A DNA stretch of 64,000 bases. It comes from Flavobacterium frigoris PS1 (lineage in GTDB: Bacteria; Bacteroidota; Bacteroidia; Flavobacteriales; Flavobacteriaceae). The stretch's first letter is position 1. Every line of letters starts with the position of its first letter. Under the pieces are notes generated by a model. The model was not told the origin of the DNA and did no database searches. It was given only the letters and a program-made list of their open reading frames with translations. Below, one piece after another: positions 10,461-16,387 of this stretch. The position numbers were made by a program, and so were the translations under genes. Where the stretch lies: NCBI RefSeq assembly GCF_000252125.1, contig NZ_AHKF01000004.1, forward strand, positions 1 through 64,000, written 5' to 3'.

Positions 10461-10586
10461 ATGAATATCAACAACAATCCCAGCACATTTAATAGTTTCA
10501 ACATCCTTAAAAAAGTAGGTGCCTTAGTGCTCGTAACCCTTATTATTGCTTTTTACGCTTTGTCAATAAATTTTCTTCTTTCATGA
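10461..10586 (+). CDS. Small one-helix membrane peptide, copy 1
   Basis: A 41-residue open frame: a polar Asn-rich start, then FNILKKVGALVLVTLIIAFY forming one membrane helix, then a short tail. It is supported by a close relative of identical length 300 bases downstream (10887-11012) that matches in layout and residues (KK/QK-x-G, LLL or VLV, FY-x-LSI). Each copy has its own promoter. I know no family for it. Location beside a two-component operon suggests a membrane-signalling partner or target; that is inference. Confidence 0.7.
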   Translation: MNINNNPSTFNSFNILKKVGALVLVTLIIAFYALSINFLLS

Positions 10587-10886: not shown

Positions 10887-11012
10887 ATGAACCACGATGA
10901 AGAAAAAAACCCCTTCAAAAGCTTAAAATTAGTGCAAAAACTAGGGCTCTTACTACTGATAATCACTATTATAACATTTTATGTCCTTTCAATTCAACAC
11001 ATAATGCAGTAA
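10887..11012 (+). CDS. Small one-helix membrane peptide, copy 2
   Basis: A 41-residue frame starting MNHDEEKNPFKSLKLVQKLG, then a hydrophobic helix (LLLLIITIITFYVLSI) and a short tail. It is a diverged tandem relative of the 10461-10586 peptide with the same length, a charged N-terminus and a membrane C-terminal half. It converges on the response regulator gene 43 bases away. The conserved length, helix position and promoter elements argue that both are real genes in spite of their size. Function unknown. Confidence 0.7.
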   Translation: MNHDEEKNPFKSLKLVQKLGLLLLIITIITFYVLSIQHIMQ

Positions 11013-11055: not shown

Positions 11056-11718
11056 TTATTCAATAATTACGATATCATTTTGCATCGCATAAACGACTAA
11101 TCCCGCACTATTTTTCGACCCGGTCTTAAGTAGTAAATTATTTCTGTGCCCTTCTACAGTTCTTGGACTTATAAAAAGTATTTCGCCAATTTCTAAATTA
11201 GTCTTTTGCTCACAAATTAATTGCAGTACTTCTATTTCCCTGCTAGTAAGAAAATTACTATCCAGCGTACTTTTATTATTTTTAGAAATGGAGTCTGTTT
11301 GTTTAATTACCTTAAGAACCTTTTCATTATAATAAAAACCTTTTAATGCAACTTGATTAATGGTTTTCAAGAGTTCTTGAGGTGTGGTGTTCTTTACCAA
11401 ATAAGATACTGCACCCACATTAATCATATTCGCTACAAAAGAAGGCGTATCGTAGCTGGTCAATGCAATAATTTTTATTTCTGGAAACTCCTTGTGTAAA
11501 ATTTTAGTCGCTTCTACACCATTTAATAATGGCATTTTTAAATCCATAATAATAATGTCAGGATGACTCTCGTTTTCGTTCAAAAAAGTGATAAGCTCCG
11601 CCCCATTAGAAGCTTCCTGAATAATATCGATATTTTCTTCCCTGCCCAAAAGAAAGGATATCCCTTTCCTAAACAGTACTTCATCGTCAACTAACATTAT
11701 TCTGATACGATCATCCAT
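11056..11718 (-). CDS. NarL/FixJ-type response regulator
   Basis: 220 residues. Receiver domain (1-125) with D11/D12, phospho-acceptor D59 (IIIMDLKMP), T87 and K109; LuxR-type helix-turn-helix at about 155-215 (LTSREIEVLQLI, then SPRTVEGHRNNL). It is the last gene of the minus-strand operon and starts 3 bases after the sensor kinase stop, so it is almost certainly the partner of that kinase. Possible targets are the two peptide promoters immediately downstream that share AAACACG; this is inference. Confidence 0.93.
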   Translation of the reverse strand: MDDRIRIMLVDDEVLFRKGISFLLGREENIDIIQEASNGAELITFLNENESHPDIIIMDLKMPLLNGVEATKILHKEFPEIKIIALTSYDTPSFVANMINVGAVSYLVKNTTPQELLKTINQVALKGFYYNEKVLKVIKQTDSISKNNKSTLDSNFLTSREIEVLQLICEQKTNLEIGEILFISPRTVEGHRNNLLLKTGSKNSAGLVVYAMQNDIVIIE

Positions 11719-11721
11719 AGT

Positions 11722-12513
11722 TTAAAAATTAAAAACAACTTGTATTCCTTTATTTAATTCTGATTCAAAGGTTATCATTCCATTTAACAAATCTACTCTA
11801 CTTTCAATATTTTTCATCCCAAGTCCATTTTTATTTTCCTTGGAATTGACATCAAAACCAACACCATCATCCGAATATCTACAATTAACTCCTCCATTTA
11901 TATTTTCGAATAAAACGCTTATGTTCTTAGCTTTTCCGTGTCGCAGAGAATTATTCATAAGCTCCTGTAAAATCCTAAAAACATGTAGATGTCTGTCATT
12001 ATCCGCTTTGTCAAATTCCACTTCATTCTTGTAATTAACCTGCACGGCTTTACTACATATAAATTCTAAACATAATTCTTCTACACCAGCATCAAGACCA
12101 AACTGATCAAAAACCGGCGGTAATAAATCATGGGCAATCCTTCTGGTATTCTCCAGTGCTTTCCCTACCAAATCAATAATATTTTTCGTGATTTCTGAAA
12201 TCTCATTATCCAATAAATTTGGCGTATTCAACAAATAGCTATTTAAAGAAACAATATTCAATTTAGAACTAATATCATCATGTAGATCTTGCGCAATTCG
12301 TTTTCGTTCGTCTTCCTGAGTAATAATTACAGCTCGTAACTGCTCTCTTTGATGTTGAATCACTAAACTTCTTTTCTCTACCTCCTTTTGGATAATCTTT
12401 TTTCGAGAATAGTAGAAAAAGACAACTAAAACTATTGCGACAACGATAAAGAAAAGAGAACTGTATAAAATAATCAATACTAATTCTTTTTCATAAGCTG
12501 GATTTATTTTCAT
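11722..12513 (-). CDS. Sensor histidine kinase, NarX-like core with one membrane helix
   Basis: 263 residues. One membrane helix at about 11-35, a coiled-coil linker, the HisKA_3 dimerisation domain with H78 in RKRIAQDLHDDISSKLN, and an HATPase domain with N box ELMNNSLRHG and G box DDGVGFD. There is essentially no extracellular sensor domain, so input must come from the membrane or another protein. The tightly linked seven-helix protein encoded just upstream (1-base spacing) is the obvious candidate sensor. Its partner is the response regulator that follows. Confidence 0.93.
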   Translation of the reverse strand: MKINPAYEKELVLIILYSSLFFIVVAIVLVVFFYYSRKKIIQKEVEKRSLVIQHQREQLRAVIITQEDERKRIAQDLHDDISSKLNIVSLNSYLLNTPNLLDNEISEITKNIIDLVGKALENTRRIAHDLLPPVFDQFGLDAGVEELCLEFICSKAVQVNYKNEVEFDKADNDRHLHVFRILQELMNNSLRHGKAKNISVLFENINGGVNCRYSDDGVGFDVNSKENKNGLGMKNIESRVDLLNGMITFESELNKGIQVVFNF

Positions 12514-12514
12514 C

Positions 12515-13150
12515 TTAACTATTTAATTTCTTTTTTGAATAACTTTTTTTCCATTCTACAAATATGAATACGTGATAAACGATGTATAGAAAGGAATTGA
12601 AAATCCAAGGCAGTTGATTTATTTCCGGATTTAAGGAAATCATAAAATTTCCTGCAAGAAACAAAATCGTACTCCCAAATAAATACATGACTACACCTAT
12701 ATTAATATAGTAGAACTCTTTCTTTTCATTTAATAGATTAAAAAAATGAAAAACGGCATATATAATGATCACAAAAGAAGTTACGAATATTTCAAGCAAA
12801 TTGAATTCAAAAAACAAACTTGGGTTATTAAAATACTGCCATCCCAAAATTAATAAAACTGTAATCGAAGCTCCTTTAACTATTTTTCTCTGCAAATCTA
12901 CTTTCTTCAGTAGGTTGAAATAAAATAGGGTCAATATCACAAATTGACCAATGAAATAAAAGTGTGATAAAAACAAATTATTTGTCTTCTGTCGAATTAA
13001 AAGCTCAGACCAAATTTGTACTATAAGAATCAATCCTAAGTAAAAAACAAACAATCTATAAGCTTTCCCTCTATGAGCAATGCTTTTAAAAAAAAGGATG
13101 AAATTCAGTAATAAAAAAAAGTATCCTATGAATGCCAATATTTTATTCAT
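12515..13150 (-). CDS. Seven-helix membrane protein, copy 2
   Basis: 211 residues with about seven hydrophobic helices and little loop sequence. It is a clear paralogue of the protein at 13554-14201; shared blocks are NNLFLSHFYF-x-GQF in helix 3, FNL-x-EIF-x-TSF in helix 5 and KKEFYY-x-NIG in front of helix 6, and YLFGSTILF within it. The conserved His, Tyr and Glu inside the membrane region hint at ligand or metal binding. It lies directly before the sensor kinase, 1 base apart. I do not recognise a named family; a role as separate sensory input is inferred. Confidence 0.8.
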   Translation of the reverse strand: MNKILAFIGYFFLLLNFILFFKSIAHRGKAYRLFVFYLGLILIVQIWSELLIRQKTNNLFLSHFYFIGQFVILTLFYFNLLKKVDLQRKIVKGASITVLLILGWQYFNNPSLFFEFNLLEIFVTSFVIIIYAVFHFFNLLNEKKEFYYINIGVVMYLFGSTILFLAGNFMISLNPEINQLPWIFNSFLYIVYHVFIFVEWKKSYSKKKLNS

Positions 13151-13155
13151 GCGGT

Positions 13156-13469
13156 TTAAGTTAATAAAGGACTTGATGGGTCACAATCAGTTGGACACGG
13201 TCGCGTAAAATCATAAATATCATCTTGCTCTTCCTCATTAGTGCTAACACCAACAGTAATCATATCTTCATAAATTCCCCTATCTGGATTATATTTAGTC
13301 CCAACAATCATAAGTTTCTTCACATTATTATCATCAACCACAATATAAGCTCTCACAGCATTGTCACCTTCAACATGTCAGCTTTTCCATTTAGAAAACC
13401 AGCTGACCAATAATCTTTCGTGCAATTCGAGTTTTTTTTATTATTTACTAAATGTATTTCCTTTACCAT
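13156..13469 (-). pseudogene. Frameshifted copy of the small soluble protein
   Basis: The C-terminal part (from VRAYIVVDDN to DPSSPLLT) matches the intact 144-residue neighbour: both have VRAY, VGTKYNP, YED, DDIYDF and PCP..DPSSPL. Upstream, a second frame from ATG at 13469 reads to DYWSAGFLNGKADMLKV and stops at 13353. One missing base near 13370 would join ADML to EGDNAVRAY, which aligns with the neighbour. So the gene is broken by a single-base deletion, or the assembly has an error there. The N-terminus is also shorter than in the intact copy. Confidence 0.65.
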
Positions 13470-13553
13470 TAATGTTAATTAAAAAAACTACTCCAAATAT
13501 TAAAACACAAAAGCATACTGCTATTTAGGCAACTAACAAAGATTGGCTTATCA

Positions 13554-14201
13554 TTATTCTATGGTAAGTTGTTCTTTTTTTGAAAAAGTCTTATACCATT
13601 CAAAAGCAATAAATAGCTGGTAAATAACATACAATAAAGCATTGGTTACCCAAGTTATTTTACTCATTTCAGCACTCATTAAAGCAGTAAGATTACCTAC
13701 AAAAAACAGAATTGTGCTACCAAATAAATAGAGCATTATACCAATGTTTAAATAATAGAATTCCTTTTTACCACTTAACATATTGTAAAAATGAAAAACG
13801 CTATAAATAACTAATAGGAAAGAGGTTAAAAATATTTCGAACAAATTAAATTTAAAAAGCAAACTAGTATCTAAACTGTATTGAATCCCTAAAATAAAAA
13901 AGCAGCATATAAAACCAATATTTATAATTTTCTTTTGTAAAGAATTGGTAAAAAGTGATTTATAAAAGAGACTTAGCACTATAAATTGGCCTAAAAAATA
14001 AAAATGAGATAAAAAAAGATTGTTAATATTTAAACTTTGTAAAAAGAAAGATGGCAACTGGACAACTAAAATAATTAAAAGATAAATCGTAAATATTTTA
14101 AAAGCTCTGCCCTGTATCATAAATTTTAAACTAAATAAAATAAAATTTACAAATAGAAGAAAACAACCAATATTAGCCAATAAATCCCAAATATAGCTCA
14201 T
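13554..14201 (-). CDS. Seven-helix membrane protein, copy 1
   Basis: 215 residues, about seven membrane helices, Phe- and Leu-rich. It is the paralogue of the 12515-13150 protein over its whole length, with the same LSHFYFLGQF, EIFLTSF and EFYYLNIG blocks. It begins 2 bases after the 144-residue soluble protein gene, so the pair is translated together, and this pair is repeated once downstream in the operon. No enzyme motif is visible. Function unknown; probably part of the sensory complex of the linked kinase. Confidence 0.8.
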   Translation of the reverse strand: MSYIWDLLANIGCFLLFVNFILFSLKFMIQGRAFKIFTIYLLIILVVQLPSFFLQSLNINNLFLSHFYFLGQFIVLSLFYKSLFTNSLQKKIINIGFICCFFILGIQYSLDTSLLFKFNLFEIFLTSFLLVIYSVFHFYNMLSGKKEFYYLNIGIMLYLFGSTILFFVGNLTALMSAEMSKITWVTNALLYVIYQLFIAFEWYKTFSKKEQLTIE

Positions 14202-14203
14202 AC

Positions 14204-14638
14204 TTAAACTTCTAAAGGACTACTAGGGTCATTATAAGGAGGGCACGGTTTTGTAAAATCATAGATATCATCAGCTTGTTCCCCAACACTTACATCTTTA
14301 CCAGGAGTAGTGATTAGATCTTCGTATATTTTTGTTTCAGGATTATATTTTGTCCCTACAAACATTAACTTTTCGATATAAGTTGGTTTATCACCTTTCT
14401 GCTCAGCCTTCACTTTTTGAACACCAATATAGGCTCGAACATGAGTTCCCCCTTCTTCTAATAATTCTTTTAAATCAACTGCTGGAATTAAAAAAGCGTT
14501 TAACTCATGATGTTTATTGTATTTACCTTCTCTTTGAGTCCAGCGTTTCGCCCATTTTTGAGCGGTTTTTAATGGAATTGAGTTAATTGCAAATCCCACT
14601 TTTTCCGATAATTTTTCCAATGTGTTTTCTTTAGACAT
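14204..14638 (-). CDS. Small soluble protein paired with the seven-helix protein
   Basis: 144 residues without signal peptide. N-terminal half is helical and basic (TAQKWAKRWTQREGKYNKHH), the middle has AFLIPAVDLKELLEEGG, followed by beta-rich HVRAYIGVQ and VGTKYNPETKIYEDLI, and a tail DDIYDFTKPCPPYNDPSSPL with two prolines and a Cys. First gene of the six-gene operon. A second, broken copy follows the first membrane protein, so soluble plus membrane protein form a duplicated unit. I do not know the family. Confidence 0.75.
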   Translation of the reverse strand: MSKENTLEKLSEKVGFAINSIPLKTAQKWAKRWTQREGKYNKHHELNAFLIPAVDLKELLEEGGTHVRAYIGVQKVKAEQKGDKPTYIEKLMFVGTKYNPETKIYEDLITTPGKDVSVGEQADDIYDFTKPCPPYNDPSSPLEV

Positions 14639-14811: not shown

Positions 14812-14835
14812 AAAAGCCTGTTAAAACAGGCTTTT
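14812..14835 (-). terminator. Terminator of dnaB
   Basis: An 11-base stem, AAAAGCCTGTT with AACAGGCTTTT, and a 2-base core. On the minus strand it is followed by a T tract, and it lies 8 bases beyond the dnaB stop. The spacer 14639-14811 holds nothing else clear. Confidence 0.85.
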
Positions 14836-14842
14836 ATATTAT

Positions 14843-16387
14843 CTAAAATGGCATATCACTATCATCATCGTCGTCATTCAAATTACTTCCAAAGGCTTCA
14901 TGTGGCGAAGGAAGATTTTTTGTTACAAACGGATTATCATCCTGATTCATTGACGAAGGTAAATCATCATAACCACCAGAATGATCCTCTAGGTTATCAA
15001 ACTTTCCAAGATGTCCAATAAATTTTAATCGAACGTTTTCAATACTACCATTACGGTGTTTTGCAATCATAATTTCTGCCTGACCAGCGGTAGGTGAAGC
15101 TTCATCATCATCCCACTCATCAATTTTATAGTATTCAGGACGATATAAAAAGGACACGATATCCGCATCTTGCTCAATCGCACCCGATTCACGAAGGTCA
15201 GAAAGCAAAGGTCTTTTACTAGATCCACGAGTCTCAACGGCACGCGATAATTGGGAAAGTGCAATAACTGGCACATTCAATTCTTTTGCTAATGCTTTTA
15301 AGTTTCGAGAAATAGTAGAGATTTCTTGTTCTCTATTTCCTCCTCCTTTACCATTTCCTCCGGCAGTCATCAATTGCAAGTAATCTACAATGATGATTCG
15401 GATTCCGTGTTGTGAAACCAAACGTCTTGCTTTGGCACGTAAATCAAAAATAGAGAGCGAAGGCGTATCATCAATAAACAAAGGTGCTTTTTCCAAATTT
15501 TTAACTTTGGTACTCAATTGTTCCCATTCGTGTTTTTCCAGTTTACCTGTACGTAACTTCTCAGACGACAAACCGGTCTCAGACGAAATTAAACGAGTAA
15601 TTAACTGAACTGATGCCATCTCAAGAGAGAATAACGCTACTGGCATTCCATAATCTATTGCCATATTTCTGGCCATAGATAGTACAAAAGCGGTTTTTCC
15701 CATCGCTGGCCTTGCCGCGATAATAATTAAATCACTTGGCTGCCATCCAGATGTAATTTTATCCAGTTTTTCAAAACCGGTAGCCACACCACTCAATCCT
15801 TCTTGACCGGCAATTTCTTCAATACGCTTTTTTGCTTGCAATACTAAACTCTGTGCCGTTTCAGAACTACGTTTAATATTCCCTTGAGTAACCTCATATA
15901 ACTTAGATTCCGCCTTGTCTAATAAATCAAAAACATCGGCTGAGTCGTCATAAGAATCCTCAATTATTTCTGATGAAATACGGATCAAACTGCGTTGAAT
16001 AAATTTCTGAAGAATAATCCTAGAGTGAAATTCAATATGAGCTGATGAGGACACCTTTTGCGTAAGCTGAATCAGGTAGAAATCTCCACCTGCTAAATCT
16101 AATTTGGCATTTTTTTTCAATTGTGCAGAGACTGTCAACAAGTCAATAGGCTGAGTCTCTGTAAACAACTGTACAATTGCTTCAAAAATATGTTTGTGTG
16201 CTTCTTTATAAAAAGCATCCGGCTGTAAAATGTCAATTACGTCATCTACTCCTTTTTTATCAATCATCATGGCACCCAGAACTGCTTCTTCCAGCTCTAA
16301 TACCTGTGGTGGTAACTTCCCCTTTTCGAGGTTTATTATTGTCGTTTTATCAACCTTAATTGGGTTTACATTTTTGAAGTTTTCCAT
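14843..16387 (-). CDS. dnaB: Replicative DNA helicase
   Basis: Hexameric 5'-3' helicase of the replisome. 514 residues: N-terminal DnaB domain (about 22-125), linker, and RecA-like ATPase domain with Walker A ARPAMGKTAF (K231), Walker B IIIVDYLQLM, and the SDLRESGAIEQDADIV motif. The C-terminal tail is acidic (DDDDDSDMPF), common in Bacteroidetes. Length normal and no intein is present. Transcribed alone; a strong terminator follows. Confidence 0.98.
   Translation of the reverse strand: MENFKNVNPIKVDKTTIINLEKGKLPPQVLELEEAVLGAMMIDKKGVDDVIDILQPDAFYKEAHKHIFEAIVQLFTETQPIDLLTVSAQLKKNAKLDLAGGDFYLIQLTQKVSSSAHIEFHSRIILQKFIQRSLIRISSEIIEDSYDDSADVFDLLDKAESKLYEVTQGNIKRSSETAQSLVLQAKKRIEEIAGQEGLSGVATGFEKLDKITSGWQPSDLIIIAARPAMGKTAFVLSMARNMAIDYGMPVALFSLEMASVQLITRLISSETGLSSEKLRTGKLEKHEWEQLSTKVKNLEKAPLFIDDTPSLSIFDLRAKARRLVSQHGIRIIIVDYLQLMTAGGNGKGGGNREQEISTISRNLKALAKELNVPVIALSQLSRAVETRGSSKRPLLSDLRESGAIEQDADIVSFLYRPEYYKIDEWDDDEASPTAGQAEIMIAKHRNGSIENVRLKFIGHLGKFDNLEDHSGGYDDLPSSMNQDDNPFVTKNLPSPHEAFGSNLNDDDDDSDMPF

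Follow-up and report, generated by a model that had tools for sequence, protein, structure and literature searches.

Introduction

In the LiaFSR and VraTSR systems, a histidine kinase without input domain is held in the membrane by a bare anchor and works together with a response regulator and a separate accessory protein, which is VraT in the latter system. LiaF, its counterpart in LiaFSR, is a protein separate from the kinase-regulator pair (PMC3543457). The 7TMR-DISM family (PF07695; RetS, LadS, RgsP) comprises bacterial receptors that couple seven membrane helices to histidine kinases, the helices being fused to extracytoplasmic and/or cytoplasmic domains (PMC6107284). The LytS-type protein BtsS likewise has seven helices, with the N-terminus outside and periplasmic ligand residues (PMC10653868). 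In DbfQRS, the gene for the small periplasmic PepSY protein DbfQ lies next to those of the two-component system, and DbfQ, which binds to the sensory domain of the kinase itself, sets the activity of the kinase (PMC12714742). Here, we describe a locus of Flavobacterium frigoris PS1 in which a small protein (SOL), a predicted seven-helix membrane protein (TM), a histidine kinase (HK) and a response regulator (RR) are encoded by separate, tightly packed genes. It occupies positions 11056-14638 of a stretch of 64,000 nucleotides (contig NZ_AHKF01000004.1, positions 1 to 64,000), which we call the window. We found that SOL-TM-HK-RR is a recurrent four-gene module across several families of the class Bacteroidia and suggest, from sequence comparison, that the seven-helix protein is probably a detached sensor of the kinase.

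The locus and its relation to described systems

Six frames, all on the minus strand, make up the locus:

14204-14638, minus strand: SOL1, small protein of 144 amino acids with no export signal (open reading frame and family alignments)
13554-14201, minus strand: TM1, predicted seven-helix membrane protein of 215 amino acids (structure model and loop charges)
13156-13356, minus strand: SOL2, broken second soluble gene of 66 amino acids (upstream stops; longer relatives)
12515-13150, minus strand: TM2, second predicted seven-helix membrane protein, 211 amino acids (family comparison)
11722-12513, minus strand: HK, histidine kinase of 263 amino acids (Pfam scan; orthologue search)
11056-11718, minus strand: RR, NarL/LuxR-type response regulator (two Pfam families over cut-off)

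An initial annotation of the window had listed these genes with their order, coordinates and seven helices. Open reading frames and Pfam confirmed the genes at the given place, and a structure model of TM1 (mean pLDDT 91.3) supports the seven helices. The intergenic gaps measure 2 bp (SOL1-TM1), 197 bp (TM1-SOL2), 5 bp (SOL2-TM2), 1 bp (TM2-HK) and 3 bp (HK-RR). SOL2 consists of the C-terminal half only, ending in PCPTDC and a short tail, with all three frames upstream closed by stops; its longer relatives (P0009-P0011) are 83-91% identical across the remaining half. The sequence blocks LSHFYF and EFYY, noticed earlier as shared, are indeed present in both TM1 and TM2. SOL1, TM1, TM2 and the SOL2 remnant matched zero Pfam or NCBIfam families over cut-off, and no further SOL or TM copies were found in the genome of the window at E ≤ 0.001. 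As had been proposed, the kinase shows no recognised input domain in the Pfam scan: HisKA_3 (39.9 bits) and HATPase_c (38.6 bits) were the sole families over cut-off, and a hydrophobic stretch near the N-terminus, read by eye, represents its one membrane helix. RR matched Response_reg (87.5 bits) and GerE (53.9 bits). The domain set of HK and RR is that of an orthodox two-component system, a HisKA_3 kinase with a NarL regulator.

Unlike in 7TMR-DISM receptors, the seven-helix protein is free-standing, the kinase carries a membrane helix of its own and a separate gene encodes a partner with a CPxxC motif. The PF07695 model (cut-off 29 bits) gave no match to TM1 and 9.7 bits for TM2; it appeared at E ≤ 10 in 15 of 39 TM relatives, with a best E of 2.6e-4, and at E ≤ 1 in none of 10 distant members. 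The locus shares with LiaFSR and VraTSR the kinase reduced to core and membrane anchor, the regulator and the separate accessory part, which here, in contrast, comprises a seven-helix protein and a CPxxC protein. The Strep_LiaS model (cut-off 450 bits) scored the window kinase at 101 bits, far below, and the LiaF family was not called in the Pfam and NCBIfam scans of the window, although whether these libraries hold LiaF or VraT models was not checked. The best NCBIfam models were MctS for the kinase (122.9 bits; cut-off 700) and MctR for the regulator (132.9 bits; cut-off 300), and the MctS match covered the kinase helix and core only (residues 22-252 versus model positions 203-436 of 457). 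As in DbfQRS, a gene for a small protein accompanies those of the kinase and the regulator; that module, however, is defined by PepSY, which matched neither SOL1 nor the 34-row SOL alignment (SOL1 included), and the kinase here has no recognised sensory domain. BtsS differs in that receptor and kinase form one protein and the regulator is of the LytTR type. The unit resembles an accessory-protein two-component system, and the defining features tested for 7TMR-DISM and DbfQRS are absent from it. No description of such a unit was found among the matches listed in the open-access literature (titles and starts of abstracts), a search that did not cover subscription papers or outside preprints.

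Recurrence of the four-gene unit

We sampled 398 Flavobacterium genomes, 199 genomes at family level and 198 at class level. Among the Flavobacterium genomes, SOL was found in 159 by single-sequence search, TM in 175 and an orthologue of the kinase (E ≤ 1e-55) in 176. SOL and TM occurred together in 158 genomes, TM and kinase in 167 and all three in 157, and 213 genomes had none of them. The single-sequence search left 17 genomes with TM and no SOL match, 10 of which hold the kinase. Nine of these ten were read (G252 was left out): eight (L246-L253) contain a diverged SOL in place, detected by profile and only 77 amino acids long in L253, and the ninth (G066, L172) lacks SOL but encodes a lipoprotein with the SOL domain.

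The order SOL-TM-HK-RR on one strand was observed in 59 of 60 Flavobacterium loci around SOL matches, a set chosen by the author among the matches in the 159 genomes; the 60th (L080) is cut by a contig end. An order that recurs in this way is not due to chance. In an overlapping set of 80 loci of named records, all four genes were detected in 79. Most gaps within Flavobacterium units range from -60 to +30 bp, with a subgroup showing 30-280 bp for TM-HK and HK-RR. The largest are 1125 bp in L052 and, in two loci with an intervening lipoprotein gene (L059, L075), 791 and 1018 bp. A wide occurrence of the SOL-TM pair without kinase, or of the kinase mostly without the pair, had been named in the initial annotation as arguments against a joint system. 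Instead, the kinase follows in the loci read with SOL and TM (L183 reaches a contig end), and only 9 of the 176 kinase-bearing genomes lack TM, all with a kinase devoid of the membrane helix.

The unit extends beyond the genus. At family level, TM was found in 40 genomes and SOL in 33, all within the 40, the SOL match in G469 being a lipoprotein on the opposite strand. At class level, TM was present in 34 genomes, SOL in 30 and both in 19 (overlap counted by hand); nine of the 11 SOL-only genomes were read, and in eight of these SOL is followed by genes for a multi-helix protein and a kinase. The class-wide TM and the Flavobacterium TM belong to one family (hhalign 99.7%, E 6.8e-27). A complete SOL-TM-HK-RR chain was found in 29 of 40 class-level loci, and three more lack a recognised regulator only. 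The remaining eight, without profile-detected SOL beside TM, were counted as misses; they include L199 and L216 with a CPxxC-ended protein in the place of SOL, below profile detection, L211, where this protein ends in PCPPGT, and L224, a contig end. Nine further loci with weak TM matches were read: a CPxxC protein precedes TM in six (L347, L348, L349, L351, L352 and L353; in L351, CPxxC is not at the protein end), none was seen in L350 and L354, and the TM of L346 is false. The unit remains intact in differing surroundings, either between dnaB and the gene for a 420-residue protein (P420) or beside tail-collar genes.

Two old pairs in one operon

TM1 and TM2 share 51% identity, and TM2 reaches up to 65% with TM of other genomes. 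In a quick FastTree phylogeny with midpoint root, TM1 grouped with TM of F. degerlachei and relatives and TM2 was closer to TM of other Flavobacterium genomes, their common ancestor spanning 55 of 132 tips (support 0.92). This distance excludes a recent tandem duplication in the window and points to two old SOL-TM pairs in the operon, with decay of SOL2 in one of them. A single pair is present in the close relative G113 (L037; F. degerlachei), and we therefore regard the duplication as a local state of a common unit; most loci hold one SOL and one TM. Contrary to what had been supposed, the duplication does not characterise the system but is local to the window lineage. TM multiplied separately elsewhere, with one kinase and one regulator kept: it is tripled in L175, L193 and L213 and doubled in L194. 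L318 and L343 hold TM fragments and were not counted as duplications: in L318 (4866-5186, plus strand), an intact TM is followed by two short TM pieces, and L343 (3995-5417, plus strand) is a decaying unit with both TM and kinase in pieces. In some operons TM, SOL or SOL-domain lipoproteins multiply while kinase and regulator stay single, a pattern that is well explained by one receiver of several inputs.

The seven-helix protein and its soluble partner

TM1 consists of helices and short loops only (helices at residues 2-25, 32-56, 64-83, 87-110, 120-143, 149-173 and 177-207). Loop charges predict, by the positive-inside rule, an N-terminus outside and a C-terminus inside, and the conserved polar residues N61, S65, H66, N119, N170, W184 and N187 lie towards the outer end. 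No solved structure was found for TM by sequence. Inspected by eye, the one long open frame among the class-level TM matches (G670, 381 amino acids, L346), a candidate TM-kinase fusion, proved to encode an unrelated membrane protein; no fusion was found, a result obtained without a systematic fusion search. In a TM subfamily without kinase, L157, L161 and L163 adjoin P420; small genes resembling YjbQ or EF-hand proteins, read by eye, also adjoin this subfamily (L157, L161, L163, L169). In L171 (4228-4941, minus strand), a TM without SOL is followed by a weakly similar kinase and a LytTR-type regulator (by eye), a hint that TM can pair with other kinases.

In most Flavobacterium loci, SOL comprises ~100-145 residues without export signal. 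Family alignments showed invariant Arg, Tyr and Asp residues in the core and a C-terminal tail of the form YDFTxPCPxxCDxxSPL (Flavobacterium alignments). In other lineages the protein in this place is often larger, partly a lipoprotein or secreted, and usually carries CPxxC near the C-terminus. Among 32 class-level partners, 27 have CPxxC, 8 were called exported and 24 lack an export signal according to a crude rule that missed at least one lipobox (L209). The proposal that the soluble protein is a ligand-side partner is not supported as stated, given the missing export signal in Flavobacterium and the lipoproteins and secreted forms elsewhere.

Some Flavobacterium operons contain one to five lipoproteins beside or replacing SOL, whose C-terminal half is the SOL domain (hhalign 98.4%, E 5.6e-15). 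One copy is present in L059, L075, L172, L176, L195 and L265, three in L264 and five in L263, and lipoboxes are visible in the lipoproteins of L263-L265. In L263, L264 and L293, the space between TM and kinase is taken up by two to five lipoprotein genes in tandem, whose products have a SOL-like domain at the C-terminus. One frame in L089 holds two SOL domains. In L183 (4896-5939, plus strand), from an assembly that is 81% complete, a single frame carries the SOL domain after a Cys-rich thaumatin-like region; the thaumatin label (PF00314, E 0.0037) was below cut-off and not used. The labels PLCC (PF14466) and NrtS, which were below cut-off or a source name alone, were likewise set aside. Foldseek returned no match for the SOL fold at E ≤ 0.001 (best E 0.16, TM-score 0.18), and five solved structures matched by sequence at E 0.23-0.28 were taken as chance.

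A kinase clade without membrane helix

The nine Flavobacterium genomes with kinase and without TM match (G030, G056, G094, G112, G150, G156, G167, G259 and G397) also lack a SOL match. In all nine, the kinase frame has 223-234 residues and starts after the position of the membrane helix. In G397 and G112, the kinase match extends further upstream across stop codons, as expected of a decayed helix. By comparison, a membrane helix was seen by eye in all N-termini read of the kinases of the 60 complete Flavobacterium units. The helix-less kinases keep the regulator and adjoin dnaB or a tail-collar gene, and the seven rows tested formed one clade with a support of 100/100. G287 (Flavobacterium laiguense) encodes a helix-less kinase beside a complete unit (L051, 1445 onward; L294, 7913-8584). 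Loci of the helix-less clade are L237-L245 and L256-L261.

Proposed mechanism and alternatives

SOL, TM, a sensorless kinase and a regulator adjoin in constant order across families, which makes the seven-helix protein the likely separate sensor of the kinase in a four-gene two-component unit. The absence of the membrane helix from kinases of the one clade found without SOL and TM, and the multiplied inputs around a single kinase and regulator, speak for the same reading. A signal would arrive at the conserved polar residues near the outer end of the seven-helix protein, and the SOL or lipoprotein partner would bind this protein through its conserved C-terminal tail and set its state. The state may then be passed laterally within the membrane to the kinase dimer at its single helix, upon which the kinase would load or unload the regulator. 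Presumed targets of the regulator are the operon that encodes it and, where present, the divergent tail-collar genes. In the window, two sensor units would feed one kinase, with the second soluble gene decaying. More tentatively, and with somewhat less confidence than in the sensor role itself, we consider that the unit could constitute a class-wide receptor akin to a split G-protein-coupled receptor: a free seven-helix protein with its N-terminus outside, docking of a CPxxC-tail partner and intramembrane drive of a sensorless kinase, tuned in each lineage by receptors, soluble partners or surface lipoproteins added to one kinase-regulator core.

Two protein families without Pfam or NCBIfam match over cut-off regularly accompany a kinase-regulator pair across many families of one class. 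Should the seven-helix protein be the sensor, the unit would represent a modular receptor with sensing and kinase parts as separate genes, in which signal transfer between membrane helices is open to part-by-part study; the clade whose kinase lacks both helix and receptor would be a natural control.

Several observations weigh against the sensor role. The Fisher tests of co-occurrence (P 1e-86 to 1e-90) ignore descent. TM occurs without adjacent kinase in L157, L158, L161, L163, L169 and L173, TM and kinase without SOL call in L164, L170, L171 and L172 (the last with the SOL-domain lipoprotein instead), and L226 has SOL and neither TM nor kinase. TM or kinase frames are broken in two of the 80 named loci (L328, L343). 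CPxxC is not universal: SOL1 ends in PCPPYND, having lost the second Cys, and the proteins in L077, L195 and L196 end in PSPPY, PSPPF and PNPPY, respectively. The structure model of SOL is poor (pLDDT 69.9), and a partner that is exported in some lineages but has no export signal in others fits no simple one-sided model. Finally, since the helix-less kinases form one clade, the loss of the helix counts as a single event. Given this clade and the two kinase forms in G287, a soluble duplicate kinase that outlived the original unit is as possible as a joint loss of helix, SOL and TM.

Among the alternatives, the one that survives best, unlikely as we consider it, takes the seven-helix protein as a sensor of stress or membrane state and assigns to SOL, by way of its Cys residues, the role of a cytoplasmic inhibitor or redox switch, with no outside ligand. 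The absence of an export signal from SOL in Flavobacterium is consistent with this, CPxxC could switch by redox or metal binding, and LiaF provides a precedent as a separate protein that represses LiaRS signalling (PMC3543457). On the other hand, other lineages have lipoproteins or secreted proteins as homologous or equivalent partners, and the residues conserved in TM are located towards its outer end.

An enzymatic or transport function of the seven-helix protein, for example as a YhhN/TMEM86-like protein, with the kinase reading its state of activity, appears improbable. Kinases can read transporter activity, BceAB-BceS being the flux-sensing precedent, and the conserved polar residues as well as the TM genes without adjacent kinase would suit such a protein. 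Several relatives bear 'YhhN-like protein' as UniProt source name, a label we did not use; however, YhhN matched neither the window proteins (Pfam, NCBIfam) nor 39 family members (Pfam), and no conserved enzyme partner was seen.

Quite improbable, too, is an Agr-like system with SOL as precursor of a peptide or protein signal, whose C-terminal tail would be released or displayed and read by the seven-helix protein or the kinase. A small gene heading the operon, a motif conserved near the C-terminal end despite very different protein lengths and the amplified lipoprotein copies would agree with it. Yet pheromones usually diversify between close relatives and this tail is conserved class-wide, the remainder of SOL forms a conserved domain with invariant R, Y and D residues, and the crude rule assigned no export signal to 24 of the 32 class-level SOLs. 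Lastly, neighbourhood by descent alone without joint function can practically be dismissed: vertical inheritance within one genus accounts for much of the co-occurrence, but the order is the same in other families and in differing surroundings, and the genes are jointly absent from 213 of the 398 genomes.

Neighbouring genes

Tail-collar genes (PF07484; 91.5 bits for one gene product) were found near the unit in 23 of 28 Flavobacterium loci away from dnaB, in 2 of 38 at dnaB, in 10 of 34 loci of other genera and in 1 of 40 class-level loci, as counted in loci with SOL or TM call. They are mostly divergent, at a distance of 0.2-2.5 kb upstream from SOL or TM; exceptions are L087 and L174 (downstream), L060 (further off) and L089 (a fragment). 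The window locus has no tail-collar gene. As a lead only, we name these genes as candidate targets of the regulator. Loci with tail-collar genes, often in tandem, are L056-L060, L062-L067, L070, L073, L076, L080, L081, L083, L085, L086 and L096, as well as L172, L177-L181, L183-L185, L187, L190 and L195. Words and palindromes within 300 bases before SOL were scanned in 79 loci (Flavobacterium loci with a SOL call below 230 amino acids and at least 250 bases upstream), and no regulator binding site was found. Some 10-base words exceeded shuffled sequences (up to 21 of 79 loci versus a shuffle maximum of 16), some of these words being recognised by eye as dnaB 3'-end sequence, and the palindromes were mostly A/T runs.

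The following features surround the window locus:

14843-16387, minus strand: dnaB
14812-14835, plus strand: terminator-like hairpin between dnaB and the operon (pattern scan only)
10461-10586 and 10887-11012, plus strand: two similar 41-residue single-helix peptides, convergent with RR and divergent from P420
9013-10275, minus strand: P420, 420-residue protein

P420 had no Pfam match at E ≤ 0.5 and is encoded downstream of the unit in most Flavobacterium loci read. Relatives of the twin 41-residue peptides are found at the equivalent place in many Flavobacterium loci.

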